Shown: positions 53,036-60,513 of the stretch, piece after piece | Position numbering within the stretch: the first letter of the stretch is position 1 | Layout: each line of letters opens with the position of its first letter | Assembly: GCF_000143085.1 (NCBI RefSeq) | Contig: NC_014315.1 | Span: 867,001-931,000 of the forward strand | Source of the DNA: Nitrosococcus watsonii C-113 | GTDB lineage: Bacteria > Pseudomonadota > Gammaproteobacteria > Nitrosococcales > Nitrosococcaceae | Reading direction: 5' to 3' | DNA: 64,000 nucleotides | Program-made: the position numbers and the translations under genes | The notes under the pieces: generated by a model | Told to the model about the DNA's origin: nothing | Databases searched by the model: none | The model's input: only the letters and a program-made list of their open reading frames with translations

Positions 53036-53272
53036 CTAAGCAAAGGAGCCGGTGACGCTTACCAAACCTGTTGAGCCGATGCCGGTGCCGAAAAGTTCAT
53101 CAATAAGTGTTTGCGCGTTTTCCCCACCCGTACCAACAGTAGCGGTCGGATCAAATCCAATGATGGCCCCGTAGGAAACAGTAAGGGGTACAGCAAAGGA
53201 AGGTGCAGCAACTATGAGGGCTGAAAAAACTCCAAAAAAAGAAAAAATTATGTTGCGTATAGTGTAAGGCAT
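53036..53272 (-). pseudogene. Truncated exported protein, choice-of-anchor-like
   Basis: A 78-codon frame with a good ribosome site (GGAGAAAAATA) and a signal peptide (FFGVFSALIVAAPSFA). The mature part GGENAQTLIDELFGTGIGST and VSVTGSF resembles the start of choice-of-anchor L proteins, which normally continue for over 150 residues and end in a PEP-CTERM tag. Here a stop comes right after the first domain strand, and no continuing frame follows. It is probably the remnant of a longer secreted protein. A long direct repeat begins about 97 bases upstream. Confidence 0.6.
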
Positions 53273-53368: not shown

Positions 53369-53905
53369 TTTGGTTGTAGCAGACCGCCTCGCGGTAACGT
53401 CTGAAAGTCTCGCTATTTGAATAAGTTAAGTCTGAGCATTAATAGCTTGCTAAATTCGGAAGCGAGGTAGAGGTAAAGGAGTTCTTGGGCATAATTCATG
53501 CCAAAGCTTAATAGAACTATCAATACCCATCATAATTTATTCCATAATCGACAACACTCCACGTAATTCTGGATTAAAAGTGTTAAATTTACGGACAAAT
53601 AGTTCGCCTAGCCAAGTACCTCAGAGCAACACCCCACCTCATAGCAGTGCTAGTCGTAAAAAATAAAATGACAAATCTGCTGTGGTAACGCCTAAGTGGC
53701 TGAATGTTTGACGCGAGCGTTTAGGTCAAGTGCGAAAAAAGCGCTAGCCTGGAGTTGAAAGGGCCATGCTATCCCGAATCCAGGAAAGTAGACCTGTTGT
53801 AATATAAGTGAGAACCAGAACCTGGGTGTTGAGCAGTGGATAAAATACCAGGTAGCCCGAAATGATTTTCTAATCGCCGGCTTCGCGATAGGCGGGATGC
53901 GCTGC
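53369..53905 (+). repeat. Long direct repeat, left copy
   Basis: About 540 bases that recur in the same orientation at 59645-60334. The central 138 bases (53604-53741) are identical between copies, whereas the flanking parts are only broadly similar (many substitutions and small gaps). No gene is seen within it. It lies upstream of a truncated exported-protein gene, and the right copy lies upstream of the DUF4331 gene. Confidence 0.85.
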
Positions 53906-54088
53906 CGCTTTCCCGCCCTGCTTGCTATTTTACTCTAGTGGGCAGAGTCAGGCAGACAAGCGCTTGAATAACAAACGAGCAGTGATCGGAAGATAAAGTT
54001 CGCTGGCGCTTCGTTTTTTTGCAGACATGCGACGCGGCCCCATACTGCTTGCTGTCAAGTGTCTATGTGGTACCAGTGTTGCTCACCG

Positions 54089-54134
54089 TAATTAATCCTG
54101 AGGTAAACTTCTGAGTTTACCTCAGGATTAATTA
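54089..54134. repeat. 21-bp-arm perfect palindrome
   Basis: TAATTAATCCTGAGGTAAACT (54089-54109) is mirrored exactly by its complement at 54114-54134 with a four-base centre TCTG. No T-tract follows, so it is not an ordinary terminator. It may be a protein-binding site, an old element junction or a hairpin in RNA. Confidence 0.85.
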
Positions 54135-54671: not shown

Positions 54672-55916
54672 ATGCAGTCCCCATTGGCTGATCGCCAGAC
54701 CCCGCCAGGAAATGCCATGGCATCAACCTCTGCTAAATTTTGGGGCGTGGGCTTGCTGGTTCTGGTCTGGTCGATGTCCCTGTGGGCCGGTCAGCCTTAC
54801 ATCCCCGCCGATGACGCAACAGTGGTAGAACGCCTGCCTGTTGGCCAGCTCCTTGAAGGGAAAAAACTGGCTGCCTTAAGGACCCGGCTGGCGGTCCGCC
54901 CCAATGACATTCGGGTTGCCTTAAAGTTAACCCGGAGTTATATCCAGTTGGGCCGAGCCGAGTCCGATCCCCGCTATTATGGCTACGCCCAAGCTGCTCT
55001 GACTCCTTGGTGGGAGCAGTCCAACCCACCGGTTCGGGTCCAGTTGCTGCGGGGCATTATCCGCCAGGCTCTGCACAACTTCGAGCCTGCCTTAGAGGAT
55101 CTGGAGGCCGTCCTAACCCGTCAGCCCCGCAATACCCAGGCTTGGCTGAGTCGCTCTGTGGTACTACTGGTCCAAGGACGGCCCCGCCAGGCTCTGGCAA
55201 GTTGCCTGAAGTTGATGCGGCTGGTCGATCTCCTGACAGTAGCAGCCTGTAGCGCCGCAGCTAGTGGCCAACTGGGACGGGGGGAGGCGGCCTACGATCT
55301 GTTGGAGCGGGCTCTGTCCCGTCCGGGAGACGATCCCACCACGCGCCAGTGGGCCTTGACGGTCCAGGGGGAATTGGCGCGCACCCTAGGCCAGGAGGAT
55401 GCCGCCGAAATGGCCTTCCAACAGGCGCTGGCTCTAGGAGTGAGAGATACCTACCTATTGGGGGCCTACGCTGATCTGCTGTTAAATCAGGATCGGCCCA
55501 GCGAAGTTTTAAATCTATTGAATGGGGAAACCCAGGCTGATGGTCTCCTGCTGCGCCTGGCTTTGGCCGAGGCCCGGCTGGATCACCCGTATTTAAGCCG
55601 CCATTTGGGCCTGATTGAAGATCGAATGGCCGCCGCCCGTCGCCGCGGTGATACACTCCATCTGCGGGAGGCCGCTCGGGCTACCCTCCATCTGTTCAAT
55701 AATCCGCAACGGGCTTTAGAACTGGCTCTGAAGAATTGGCAGAACCAACGCGAACCTCGGGACGCCCACCTGGTGCTAGAAGCAGCCCTGGCGGCTAGCC
55801 GGCCTGAGGCTGCCACCCCGGTGCTAGACTGGTTAGATGAAACGGGTCTGCAAGATCACACCCTAGCCCCCCTCCAACAACGCCTGCGGGAAATGAGCGA
55901 CCATGGCAAGTCGTAA
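54672..55916 (+). CDS. TPR-repeat exported protein
   Basis: A 414-residue protein with an N-terminal signal or anchor helix (FWGVGLLVLVWSMSLWAG) and a solenoid of tetratricopeptide-like repeats over the rest (for example RVALKLTRSYIQLGRAESDP, NFEPALEDLEAVLTRQPRNT and AEMAFQQALALGVRDTYLLG). ATG 54672 has GAGGAG nine bases before it. The last 14 bases overlap the HupE/UreJ gene, so the two are translated together. TPR proteins are scaffolds; here it probably holds a complex on the periplasmic side of the membrane. The specific family is not recognised. Confidence 0.85.
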   Translation: MQSPLADRQTPPGNAMASTSAKFWGVGLLVLVWSMSLWAGQPYIPADDATVVERLPVGQLLEGKKLAALRTRLAVRPNDIRVALKLTRSYIQLGRAESDPRYYGYAQAALTPWWEQSNPPVRVQLLRGIIRQALHNFEPALEDLEAVLTRQPRNTQAWLSRSVVLLVQGRPRQALASCLKLMRLVDLLTVAACSAAASGQLGRGEAAYDLLERALSRPGDDPTTRQWALTVQGELARTLGQEDAAEMAFQQALALGVRDTYLLGAYADLLLNQDRPSEVLNLLNGETQADGLLLRLALAEARLDHPYLSRHLGLIEDRMAAARRRGDTLHLREAARATLHLFNNPQRALELALKNWQNQREPRDAHLVLEAALAASRPEAATPVLDWLDETGLQDHTLAPLQQRLREMSDHGKS

Positions 55917-57021
55917 TTTCATCTTTCTGTTTCTGCTGCTGCTCCTACCGCCGTCGGCTTTGGCTCATAAGCCCAGTGATAGCTACCTGATCTTGAATCC
56001 GGCGGCTGGGACTGGGCGTTGGGACATTGCCTTGCGGGATCTGGAACATGCCATCGGTCTGGACGTCGACCGGAACGGCCTACTGACCTGGGGGGAAGTG
56101 CGAGCCCGCCACCCGGCTATTGCCGCCTACGTTCTGGCTCGGCTAACCCTTTCCACCGATAAAGGAGACTGCCTCCTCACTCCTGGCGCTCAGCAGCTGG
56201 TAGATCACAGCGATGGGACCTATACGGTCCTCCCCTTAACCTTGGACTGCCCTGCCCCCGGACCCCTGACTGTGGATTACCGGCTGTTTTTCGACCTGGA
56301 CCCTTCCCATCGGGGCCTGCTCCAAGTACAGCACGAGGGGGGGAGTGATACCGCCATTCTCTCCCCCCAACGCCCGGCTCTAACCTTGGCCGTTACGGGG
56401 CGGCCCTGGACCACGGTGCTAGCCGAGTATTGGCAGGAGGGAGTGTGGCATATCTGGATCGGTTTCGACCATATCTTGTTCCTGATGGCCTTGCTACTGC
56501 CAGCGGTGCTGTGGCGGGACGGAGACCATTGGCGGGCGGTGACCTCCTTGGGTTCGGCGCTGAAAAACATAGCGGCTATCGTCACCGCCTTTACCGTAGC
56601 TCACTCCATCACCCTGACCCTAGCGGTGGTAGGCTGGCTGGACCTGCCGGCCCGCTGGGTGGAGTCAGCCATCGCGCTAACTGTGGTGGTGGCAGCCCTC
56701 AATAACCTCTACCCCCTGGGGTGGGGTCGCCAGTGGATGATTGCCTTCGCCTTAGGTCTAATTCATGGTTTTGGCTTCGCCGGCGTACTCACGGATCTGG
56801 GGCTAGCGGACGGGACCATGGCGAGTGCACTAGCTGGCTTCAACCTGGGGGTTGAGACAGGTCAATTGGCCATTGTCGCCCTGTTTATTCCTTTGGCCTT
56901 TGTCCTGCGGGAGACGTGGTTTTACCGTCAGGCGGTGCTGAGAGGTGGCTCCTTGGCCGTCGCGGGGATTGCCCTGGTATGGCTGCTAGAACGCAGCCTA
57001 GGAGTGGTGGTGCTATCCTAA
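55903..57021 (+). CDS. HupE/UreJ family membrane protein with EF-hand
   Basis: A 372-residue protein. A signal peptide (residues 1-21) precedes a periplasmic domain of about 160 residues, then six to seven membrane helices of the HupE/UreJ type with the signatures VWHIWIGFDHILFLMALLLP and IVTAFTVAHSITLTLAV, and later ALGLIHGFGFAGVLTDLGL. The His and Asp residues in these helices are the metal-pathway residues of the family (nickel or cobalt uptake in relatives). The periplasmic domain has an EF-hand-like loop DVDRNGLLTWGE (Asp54, Asp56, Asn58, Glu65). It is coupled to the TPR gene. Transport substrate is not known. Confidence 0.88.
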   Translation: MASRNFIFLFLLLLLPPSALAHKPSDSYLILNPAAGTGRWDIALRDLEHAIGLDVDRNGLLTWGEVRARHPAIAAYVLARLTLSTDKGDCLLTPGAQQLVDHSDGTYTVLPLTLDCPAPGPLTVDYRLFFDLDPSHRGLLQVQHEGGSDTAILSPQRPALTLAVTGRPWTTVLAEYWQEGVWHIWIGFDHILFLMALLLPAVLWRDGDHWRAVTSLGSALKNIAAIVTAFTVAHSITLTLAVVGWLDLPARWVESAIALTVVVAALNNLYPLGWGRQWMIAFALGLIHGFGFAGVLTDLGLADGTMASALAGFNLGVETGQLAIVALFIPLAFVLRETWFYRQAVLRGGSLAVAGIALVWLLERSLGVVVLS

Positions 57022-57119
57022 GGCCCAGAAATAGCGTCAGGTAGGTAGGTGGCGAAAACTGCTTGCGCTATTCCTGGTTCACTAAGCCTTTAAGGATGGA
57101 TTCTCTACTGCTGGGAAAG

Positions 57120-57857
57120 TCAGCCGGCGCCGGAACTAACCTCCCAGCGCCGTCGGCCGTGCCTCGCTCCTCCCAGAATCCCAAGTCCCACCAGTAAACT
57201 CATTAGGGTAGAGGGCGCTGATACCTCGACGGTTTCCACCAGAAAGGTAGCATTAGCCAGATTAAGGGCAGAGGTACCGGCATCCGCTTGGGTTGAAGAG
57301 CTTAATAGAATATCTAAGGTGGCCATATCGCCGGGGTTCAGGCTAAAATTGCTAATAAAGGGTATGTTTTTATCCGCCATCCCCGTAAATAGGAGATCCT
57401 CCTCTATTAGCACCCCAAAAGGGCCTAGGATAGAGAAGGCTAGCGAGGTATTAGCCAGCCCACCTGATTCCGACTGTTGAATATCGAAATCTAGCGTGAA
57501 CTTCAGCGCTCCACCAGGAGCGGTGAAGTCACCAGAGAAGGATGACGTGCTGGAGGCATCAGCGGACTCGTTAGTTCCGGCAATGCTTTCCGTATTGACA
57601 AGCAGCAGATCCTCGTCAACAGCGGCGAAAGCAGCGGCGGTGCTGCCATTGGCGGTACTGAGCAAGATATCGTCATTGAGAGGCAATGGCGGTCCACCTG
57701 CCACGAAATTGTCCGACAGCAAATCACCGCTACTCTCTTCAATGTTCGCTTCACCGAGAATATCGGCAGCGCTGGGAATGATAGTCACAGGAATAGCCCC
57801 AGCCACGGGGGCAGCTAATCCCAGGGCCAGTAGGACTACTAAGCGTTTTTTGTTCAC
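57120..57857 (-). CDS. PEP-CTERM-like exported protein
   Basis: A 245-residue protein starting at GTG 57857, with GGAAAGAG before it. The signal peptide is RLVVLLALGLAAPVAGA. The mature part is Ser/Asp-rich and beta-like. The end reads VSAPSTLMSLLVGLGILGG followed by ARHGRRR, a variant of the PEP-CTERM tag: small-Pro motif, helix, basic stop. Nine further residues follow the basic cluster, which is unusual. A terminator lies only 29 bases upstream, so expression may depend on read-through from the DUF4331 gene. Function unknown. Confidence 0.75.
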   Translation of the reverse strand: MNKKRLVVLLALGLAAPVAGAIPVTIIPSAADILGEANIEESSGDLLSDNFVAGGPPLPLNDDILLSTANGSTAAAFAAVDEDLLLVNTESIAGTNESADASSTSSFSGDFTAPGGALKFTLDFDIQQSESGGLANTSLAFSILGPFGVLIEEDLLFTGMADKNIPFISNFSLNPGDMATLDILLSSSTQADAGTSALNLANATFLVETVEVSAPSTLMSLLVGLGILGGARHGRRRWEVSSGAG

Positions 57858-57885
57858 GTTCTCTTTCCTTATCTCAATTTTGCAA

Positions 57886-57915
57886 GAAAAACCGGACGGT
57901 TCGGTCCCGTCCGGT
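57886..57915 (-). terminator. Intrinsic terminator after DUF4331 gene
   Basis: On the minus strand, ACCGGACGG and CCGTCCGGT form a perfect nine-base-pair stem with a seven-base loop (57891-57915), followed by five T residues. It lies 38 bases after the DUF4331 stop and before the next minus-strand gene. Confidence 0.85.
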
Positions 57916-57953
57916 ATTAACGGCTGTTATCGTTATTATCGATTATCAGACGA

Positions 57954-59531
57954 TTAGTCCTCAGGGCAGATACCATCGCAGCCCATCTCATTGGGATCAA
58001 TATGGCGGCTGTTACGCCCGGACTGGGCAAAGCCTACATAGGGAAAAGTTTCCTGATAGGCTGTATCGTTGCTATTTACTCCATCCCCTAATCGGCCATT
58101 AACCTCGGGGTCATAACCGGGAAAGGGCGCGGCCAGCACACCTCCGGCTACTACCCGGGCGGCAATATCGGTCACATCGTCAGAAACCCGCCGACCGTTG
58201 GGAAAGCCCGCCGTATCGTCGGCTAGGAAGCCCAGCCGGCTGCGGTTAGCCGCGGCCGTGGGGGGAATGGCCGTGTTTAAGCGCAGCAGATCGGCGATTG
58301 GGCCTGTATCAGCTTTGGTGCAGCCGGGGCAGATGGGGGCCATATACTGGACCAGGGGCAGAAGATCAGTGCGGGGTGGCGCAGGGATAGCCAGAGCGCC
58401 CTCAGTAAGAGCATTAAACACCCGCGCTAGCAGGGGGTCCAGGGCGAAATCGGCGAATTGATCATCGTTGGCCGGCGCGCTGCGGCTCCACTCGTTTTTG
58501 AAGCCGGTGCCGATAATCAACTCATTGATCAGAGGATTACCCATTCGTTGGATCTGTACAAAGCTTCTCGAAGTCAGCGCTTCCTGTCTGGGTCGGGTGG
58601 AGTAGACCTTGACCCGAGGCCGGGAAGTGGTGCCCCAAGTACCGATGACCGCCTCGGGCTCATTGGCGGCATGCAAAGCACCGTCAGCGGTGAGCAAGGT
58701 GATGGGTACCTCGATGGCAATGACGTTGACGTTGTAGCCCGCTACTTCATCTGGAGCAAAGTTCAGATTATCATTGGCGTCTTGGGCAGCGCTTAGGACA
58801 CCAGGGGCTACGGACTCACGAAAGTTGAAAGTGTCAAAGGCTGCGCCTAAGTCTATATAGAAGGGGTCTTCCACGGTACCGGCGAAAACCTGAACTCCTC
58901 CCCCTAAATTATGGATGCCTTGGATAGCCAGGGAGTCATAGTCGGGCATAGTCCTGGGGCCAACATTAGAAGGCACAGCGATCAACCCTGTGGCTAATTT
59001 GGTACGGGATGCACCTCGACCACTGCCCTTCACCAGAGTCACGGTGTAAGTCTGGCGTAAGCTTAGCCCCTCGGAACCAGGCCCCTCCAGAGTGGTGATA
59101 GCTGGGGGAATAAGGGGCGTGCCTGAAGCCACCGGTGCTGGAGAGTTTTCCGGCGCTGCAATACCGCCATCGGTCCCTACAAAGCCGGTAAAGACATTGG
59201 GTGCGCGTATCTCGGTTTGGAATTGAACCTCAAAAGTCACGTCCTCAATGGCATCCTTATCATTATCAATGCGGATAGCGTAGAGAATCTCCGGATCAAA
59301 GGGGAAATAATTAGGCCCGTTACCCGGTTCCAGAAGGGGATCGACACTCAGGATCAGGGTAACCTTGGTCGCATCGTCGTAACTGACAAAAGCGAAGAAG
59401 TCGGTGATATCGGCTTTCTCATCCAGGGCCGTTAAAGGCGCTTCACGGTGGCTGGCTGCATAGGCCAAGCTGCTTAAGGTTATTAAGAGGGCCGCTGTCG
59501 TTAGTGCAGCGATAATGGTATTAGATTTCAT
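57954..59531 (-). CDS. DUF4331 exported protein
   Basis: A 525-residue DUF4331 protein from ATG 59531, which has GAGGAGAAC just before it; the frame open to 59669 has no such site. A signal peptide (LITLSSLAYA) is followed directly by the family's opening ASHREAPLTALDEKADITDF. Other family blocks are VTLILSVDPLLEPGNGPNYF, the acidic IDNDKDAIEDVTFEVQF, and the C-terminal GFLADDTAGFPNGRRVSDDV. The last residues have two Cys (MGCDGICPED). The protein should be periplasmic or surface-exposed. Its function is unknown. It is divergent from nothing nearby but lies beside the TPR and HupE genes. Confidence 0.92.
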   Translation of the reverse strand: MKSNTIIAALTTAALLITLSSLAYAASHREAPLTALDEKADITDFFAFVSYDDATKVTLILSVDPLLEPGNGPNYFPFDPEILYAIRIDNDKDAIEDVTFEVQFQTEIRAPNVFTGFVGTDGGIAAPENSPAPVASGTPLIPPAITTLEGPGSEGLSLRQTYTVTLVKGSGRGASRTKLATGLIAVPSNVGPRTMPDYDSLAIQGIHNLGGGVQVFAGTVEDPFYIDLGAAFDTFNFRESVAPGVLSAAQDANDNLNFAPDEVAGYNVNVIAIEVPITLLTADGALHAANEPEAVIGTWGTTSRPRVKVYSTRPRQEALTSRSFVQIQRMGNPLINELIIGTGFKNEWSRSAPANDDQFADFALDPLLARVFNALTEGALAIPAPPRTDLLPLVQYMAPICPGCTKADTGPIADLLRLNTAIPPTAAANRSRLGFLADDTAGFPNGRRVSDDVTDIAARVVAGGVLAAPFPGYDPEVNGRLGDGVNSNDTAYQETFPYVGFAQSGRNSRHIDPNEMGCDGICPED

Positions 59532-59644: not shown

Positions 59645-60334
59645 GCTTGGTTGTGGTGGGCCGCCTCACAGTAATGTCTGAAGGTGGTTTGCTATTTGAA
59701 TAAGCTAAGCCAAAGCATTACTGGCTTACTGATTCGGAAGTAAGGCAAGGAAATTCAAGCATAATTCATGCCGAAGTTTAATAAGACTATCAATAACAAT
59801 CATATTTTACTTTTGTACCGGCAACGCTCTAGGTCATTGTAGATTACAGTGTTAAATTTATGGACAAATAGTTCGTTTGGGAAAAGCCTCAGAGCGTGCC
59901 CCGGCGCCTATTAAAACGTAACTAAGTTTTTGATAATAAAATAATTTGCTTTGTATCGGCAATATTCTAGGATATTGTAAATTAAAGATGTTAAATTTGT
60001 GGACGAATAGCTCGCCTAGCCAAGTACCTCAGAGCAACACCCCACCTCATAGCAGTGCTAGTCGTAAAAAATAAAATGACAAATCTGCTGTGGTAACGCC
60101 TAAGTGGCTGAATGTTTGACGCGAGCGTTTAGGTCAAGTGCGAAAAAAGGGGCTAGACTGGAGTTGAAACGGCTATACTATTCCGAATCCACCGGAGGTT
60201 AGAGCTATTGTAATATGAGTGATAATCAGAATCGGGTTGTTGAGCAAAGAGCCGCATTATTAATAGGCGGATAAAATACCGAATAGCGCCGGGATGATCT
60301 TCTAATTGCCAGCTTCGCGGCTGGTGGGATGCGC
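59645..60334 (+). repeat. Long direct repeat, right copy
   Basis: Second copy of the repeat at 53369-53905. It contains the identical 138-base core at 60012-60149 and an additional partial internal duplication: the block ending GGACAAATAGTTCG near 59860-59880 recurs as GGACGAATAGCTCG at 60001. No gene is seen here or in the rest of the 59670-60513 gap. Confidence 0.85.
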
Positions 60335-60513
60335 TACTACTCAGTTAGGAAGGCTAACAGCCCTACGTTTCTTTCAGCTATTGGATTTCATGATATTTAA
60401 AAAATTAACACTATACTGTTTATGATTAAGTAAGCCGGCGATGTTGTGATAAGCCATGGGTTTAATTCAATATTGCCGTCCCTTGATAAACCCACTAACC
60501 AGGGAGATTAATA

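Follow-up and report, generated by a model that had tools for sequence, protein, structure and literature searches.

What is the function of four genes for exported or membrane proteins that lie together between two long direct repeats in Nitrosococcus watsonii C-113? The window examined here is a stretch of 64,000 nucleotides (contig NC_014315.1, positions 867,001 to 931,000 of the forward strand) from this genome of 3.37 Mb in three contigs, and positions are counted from its first letter. On the forward strand are an exported protein with TPR matches (54717..55916) and a HupE_UreJ_2 permease (55903..57021). Facing them on the reverse strand is an exported DUF4331 protein (57954..59531), and a PEP-CTERM-like exported protein (57120..57857, also reverse) is encoded in between. 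All four genes are intact and the repeats that bracket them are real, as the initial annotation had stated. Its claim that the TPR and HupE genes are translationally coupled is plausible, since they share 14 nucleotides (ATGGCAAGTCGTAA). The TPR reading frame opens at 54672, and the ATG at 54717 gives a better fit to a signal peptide. The block appears to be a rearranged copy of a conserved DUF4331-TPR-permease module.

Conservation of the module and its regulators

Full-length DUF4331 proteins occur in 16 genomes of an evenly drawn sample of 398 Pseudomonadota. In 12 of these 16 genomes, spanning eight families, a HupE_UreJ_2 gene lies within 4 kb of DUF4331, and in all 12 a TPR gene adjoins it. 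The corresponding family, PF13795, scores above its cut-off in just 96 of the 398 genomes. DUF4331, TPR, and HupE genes are thus clustered far above chance, and this neighborhood test does not refute the recurrence in other genomes that the initial annotation had proposed.

A second set of 80 named loci from many phyla was collected by sequence patterns far from the DUF4331 N-terminus. Their usual gene order is DUF4331-TPR-permease, and most relatives have the TPR homologue directly 3' of DUF4331. The TPR gene is accompanied by HupE in 11 loci and by a NicO permease in 21; another ten have a TPR gene and no permease that we could find, 24 have neither, and six are ended by a contig edge. HupE occurs without a downstream TPR gene only in L057, an exception with the reversed order HupE-TPR-DUF4331. 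Where enough sequence is available, a permease is missing in 24 of the 25 loci that lack a downstream TPR gene. The co-occurrence of TPR and permease genes (Fisher P = 3e-9) has a P value that overstates independence because the loci share descent, but the pattern nonetheless spans many phyla. Beyond 6 kb from the module, 435 kb of the contigs that carry these loci contain no NicO gene and 452 kb contain no TPR or HupE gene. NicO, which Pfam confirmed in each of the eight loci checked, replaces HupE in Actinomycetota, Chloroflexota, and some Acidobacteriota. In the literature searched, DUF4331, PF14224, and PF13795 are not mentioned by these terms. The module seems to be widespread and undescribed, and its components look like those of a metal uptake system.

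The initial annotation overlooked a linkage to extracytoplasmic function (ECF) sigma factors and their anti-sigma factors, together with its loss in the rearranged window copy. An ECF sigma factor and an RskA-like anti-sigma factor are encoded within a few kb of the module in 13 of the 16 sampled Pseudomonadota genomes, and an ECF sigma gene is near DUF4331 in 31 of 57 named loci. Within the clade of the window copy, the anti-sigma factor belongs to the ChrR-cupin type. A promoter-like motif, GCATCC-N16-CGT[AT], was first spotted by eye upstream of DUF4331 in L028-L042; a scan of 3.42 million strand-bases gave 40 matches to it. It lies directly upstream of DUF4331 in 15 loci (about 0.3 expected) and upstream of the ECF gene in five. 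The enrichment within L028-L042 is partly circular because the motif was defined there; six of the 15 loci are named loci outside this defining set (L047, L054, L057, L098, L113, and L118). The motif also precedes a PEP-CTERM gene in L047, a TonB receptor gene in L034, and, in L098, a NosD-like gene that is followed by a homologue of the PEP-CTERM-like protein of the window. An ECF11-like TGATC motif was tried and discarded after few matches. The window itself does not contain GCATCC-N16-CGT[AT], and no ECF sigma or anti-sigma gene is present in the neighborhood of the block. Searches across the window genome found no RskA_C or ChrR-cupin domain, and its best ECF match, encoded elsewhere in the genome, is 28% identical.

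Predicted metal sites and a possible uptake relay

The DUF4331 protein of the window (PF14224, E = 3e-111) has a predicted mature start of NH2-Ala-Ser-His-Arg-Glu (codons at 59456-59448). All 97 DUF4331 sequences compared share an invariant histidine that is predicted to be residue 3 of the mature protein, and it is not a selection artifact because the patterns used to gather the named loci lay far from this terminus. In 74 sequences the protein is exported (..A|SSH, with Ala at position -1 in 69, Gly in four, and Ser in one). The other 23 have no signal peptide and begin MSSHREAP (LSSHREAP in one case), where removal of the methionine would give the same SSH start. All 97 are thus predicted to have His3, a free amine, and no proline at position 2. 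The X-X-His sequence at a free N-terminus is the amino-terminal Cu(II)- and Ni(II)-binding (ATCUN) motif reviewed in PMC7701195. A TPR gene is present in the locus for 65 of the 74 exported proteins and for none of the 23 unexported ones, which are mostly from Actinomycetota and Chloroflexota and have neither a TPR gene nor a permease (e.g., L069, L070, L074, L075, L105, and L106). An N-terminal nucleophile hydrolase was also considered for this family and rejected, since residue 1 is alanine in the window protein and its nearest relatives.

The AlphaFold2 model of DUF4331 (predicted local distance difference test score, pLDDT, 87) is a beta-sandwich for which a fold search gave no clear match. 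It has weak structural matches to the CBM74 region of Sas6 (Z = 8.0) and, at Z = 5.2-5.5, to CBM9 and the heme subunit of ethylbenzene dehydrogenase. The latter two likenesses might indicate that DUF4331 is an enzyme or a binder of carbohydrate or heme, in which case it would bind something other than a free metal ion and the permease would transport a different cargo. The many invariant residues beyond the N-terminus and the unexported proteins without transporters would also be consistent with such a role. However, unrelated antibody chains reach Z-scores at least as high, the sequence has no match in the PDB (complement C3, E = 0.14, is regarded as chance), and this reading does not account for two separate processing routes that lead to His3. 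We consider this explanation quite unlikely.

The permease matches PF13795 (E = 2e-47, 161 bits against a cut-off of 24.5) and has no match above cut-off to the canonical HupE_UreJ family, PF04955. A canonical PF04955 gene does occur just past the module in Candidatus Contendobacter (L045:15908-16528, reverse strand). In the model of the window protein (pLDDT 84), the periplasmic domain is most similar to the Cu-bound crystal structure of Ang-1 (9gce; Z = 12.2 over 131 residues with a root mean square deviation of 3.0 A; Foldseek E = 4.6e-4), followed by the zinc proteins ZrgA and PA4063 (Z = 9-10). A sequence search of the PDB with the HupE alignment gave no match. Cleavage by the A-x-A rule (SALA|HKPSDS) would leave an N-terminal histidine (codon 55966-55968), as is predicted for nearly all HupE and NicO partners (..A|HPLGN in NicO). 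With its membrane domain, modeled Ang fold, and predicted N-terminal histidine, the window protein appears to be an anglerase; the initial annotation had overlooked this, as well as the His3 of DUF4331. Ang-1 binds Cu with a dissociation constant of 74 nM and Ni with one of 220 nM (PMC12537917).

The chances seem somewhat better than even that the module is a relay for the capture and uptake of Cu or Ni, leading from outside the cytoplasm to an inner-membrane permease. Exported DUF4331 would bind Cu(II) or Ni(II) at its free N-terminal X-X-His site, and the exported TPR protein would dock DUF4331. The HupE/UreJ-2 protein would then take the metal on its own N-terminal histidine, in a mono-histidine brace as in anglerases, and move it via the membrane domain. 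In other phyla, a NicO permease with a predicted N-terminal histidine would fill the HupE slot. We favor this relay because it accounts for the components, for the exchange of one permease for another, and for an N-terminal site on each of two proteins. From these features we infer the binding of a metal, its hand-over from protein to protein, and the direction of its transport. The metal could be Cu or Ni alike: by analogy, the Ang-1 and ATCUN features favor Cu, and HupE and NicO proteins are known for Ni and Co. Ammonia oxidizers and methanotrophs need much copper, and the nearest relatives of the window DUF4331 include methanotrophs, which speaks for the relay.

The same parts could run in the opposite direction. 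Under envelope stress, DUF4331 might sequester excess Cu or Ni and HupE or NicO export it, with an ECF stress sigma factor switching the system on. The linkage to ECF and anti-sigma genes, including ChrR-cupin anti-sigma factors, would agree with detoxification of this kind, and the NicO family includes nickel exporters. Neighboring genes in a few loci fit uptake better. TonB receptor genes are near the module in four gammaproteobacterial loci (L030, L034, L086, and L118), DUF4198 adjoins DUF4331 in L041, L042, and L043, and urease genes lie about 2 kb from the module at L031:14632-18331 (UreC by family search, UreG and others by appearance). DUF4198 binds Ni, and the function of Ang-1 has been read as uptake (PMC12537917). 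Detoxification and export is unlikely in our estimation.

Several points weigh against the uptake relay. Some NicO-type proteins are exporters, which makes efflux a possibility. The distribution of urease does not follow that of the module, and nickel supply to urease as its sole purpose was rejected because only some module genomes have urease. Signal cleavage was called by the A-x-A rule rather than by a trained predictor or proteomics, and both metal binding by DUF4331 and transport are predictions. The 23 unexported proteins without TPR or permease imply some role outside the relay, and the HREAP sequence could be conserved for another reason. Last, the window copy has lost both the ECF/anti-sigma pair and the motif.

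A broader proposal, which we hold tentatively and at rather less than even probability, is that DUF4331 may be a new family of ATCUN metalloproteins with the same N-terminus whether exported or cytoplasmic. Together with TPR and anglerase or NicO proteins, it would then form an undescribed, widespread system for Cu or Ni acquisition in methane and ammonia oxidizers among others. How these organisms and many soil bacteria gather Cu and Ni is only partly understood. The proposal would give DUF4331, a large family of unknown function, a specific metal-site hypothesis, and it would assign the anglerase permeases, which were named only recently, to a system of several proteins that is linked to sigma factors and occurs across phyla.

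The rearranged copy in N. watsonii

The PEP-CTERM-like gene, downstream of DUF4331, encodes a variant C-terminal signal (VSAPSTL...GRRRW) that follows the usual arrangement except that SAPS stands where PEP is expected. No sorting-signal model of Pfam or NCBIfam matches it. An exosortase is encoded in the window genome (PF09721, E = 1e-80), and the homologue near DUF4331 in L098 (E = 6e-21) has MPEP. PEP-CTERM proteins are also neighbors of DUF4331 in close relatives, and they are mostly dissimilar outside the sorting signal. The protein is a loose, recurrent companion within the clade and lies outside the module core.

A Ca- or metal-dependent surface assembly of DUF4331, the TPR protein, and the PEP-CTERM protein had been offered as a possible reading of the locus. 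Every part is exported, close relatives have PEP-CTERM neighbors, and the beta-sandwich of DUF4331 has its weak match to Sas6. The EF-hand-like loop noted earlier in HupE is indeed present (DVDRNGLLTWGE, about 56062-56097) and recurs in 15 of 24 HupE relatives. It is missing in the other nine, however, and the shared features point instead to Cu or Ni capture and membrane transport. Moreover, the core partner is a permease that can be exchanged for another permease, and the PEP-CTERM neighbors are mostly unlike one another beyond the sorting signal. The metal role thus gains from the anglerase fold, the N-terminal histidine, the ATCUN site, and the NicO exchange, but Ca-dependent assembly is unsupported, and we regard a surface assembly as very unlikely.

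DUF4331 was not found in three congeners or in 35 further representatives of the order that were sampled. In one congener (G002, probably N. oceani) the flanks are shared at 87-92% identity, but 2.8 kb of different genes lie between them (L134:4300-7230), including an AbrB/PIN-like pair, so named by appearance, and another PEP-CTERM-like gene. This is a variable site, located between prpD and DUF3015. In a DUF4331 tree, the window copy joins Candidatus Contendobacter and methanotrophs in a group with a support of 97, within a wider clade that contains Acidobacteriota and one planctomycete, and Nitrospirota are further out. Horizontal transfer, the simplest interpretation of these data, is probable, although DUF4331 may have been lost in other lineages instead of gained by N. 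watsonii. No phage relatives were found. Parted from its usual regulators, the window copy may have altered expression or be on its way out. Simple decay is disfavored because the reading frames are open and the DUF4331 protein is about 66% identical to that of Contendobacter.

The direct repeats (53370..53903 and 59647..60335; 0.5-0.7 kb each) are 75-82% identical across two blocks. They are the only two copies in the window genome, and none was found in the three congeners. The right copy is upstream of DUF4331. The left copy is upstream of a short exported open reading frame of 78 amino acids (53036-53272, reverse strand). The region upstream of DUF4331 is duplicated in front of this frame, which perhaps encodes a truncated surface protein. 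A palindrome with a perfect 21-nucleotide inverted repeat is located at 54089-54134. An Rfam scan found no RNA family reaching its gathering threshold, and a sub-threshold mir-624 match on a palindrome was regarded as chance. Short matches to the sequence at about 53890-53935 are numerous in the rest of the window genome and in G002, as for repeated intergenic elements, and 60215-60308 has eight matches at 82-86% identity in another congener (G001), which suggests a dispersed repeat of the genus.

Relation to known systems

Among the closest known systems are the anglerases, which combine an Ang-1 or Ang-2 domain with HupE/UreJ-2 (Franco Cairo et al. 2025, PMC12537917). The window permease shares with them PF13795, a beta-sandwich of the Ang-1 fold, and an N-terminal histidine predicted to follow the signal peptide directly. 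Unlike the anglerases as described, it is one part of a DUF4331-TPR-permease cluster that is ECF-linked in relatives, and the main text of PMC12537917 mentions neither DUF4331, TPR, nor sigma factors. The HupE/UreJ (PF04955) and NicO (PF03824) Ni/Co permeases are transporters of a related type, and NicO holds the same slot in other phyla. In contrast to PF04955 proteins, the window protein matches PF13795 and carries an Ang-1 domain.

Relatives of the window block also resemble the SigK-RskA regulons (PMC7509140) and ECF-ChrR systems in pairing the module with an ECF sigma factor, an RskA_C or ChrR-cupin anti-sigma factor, and an ECF-type promoter motif. The window copy differs in having no such regulator or motif, and in the literature searched DUF4331 is not described as a target. 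Finally, the free N-terminal X-X-His of DUF4331, a putative metal site, is the feature that it has in common with ATCUN proteins such as serum albumin, the histatins, and Ctr1.

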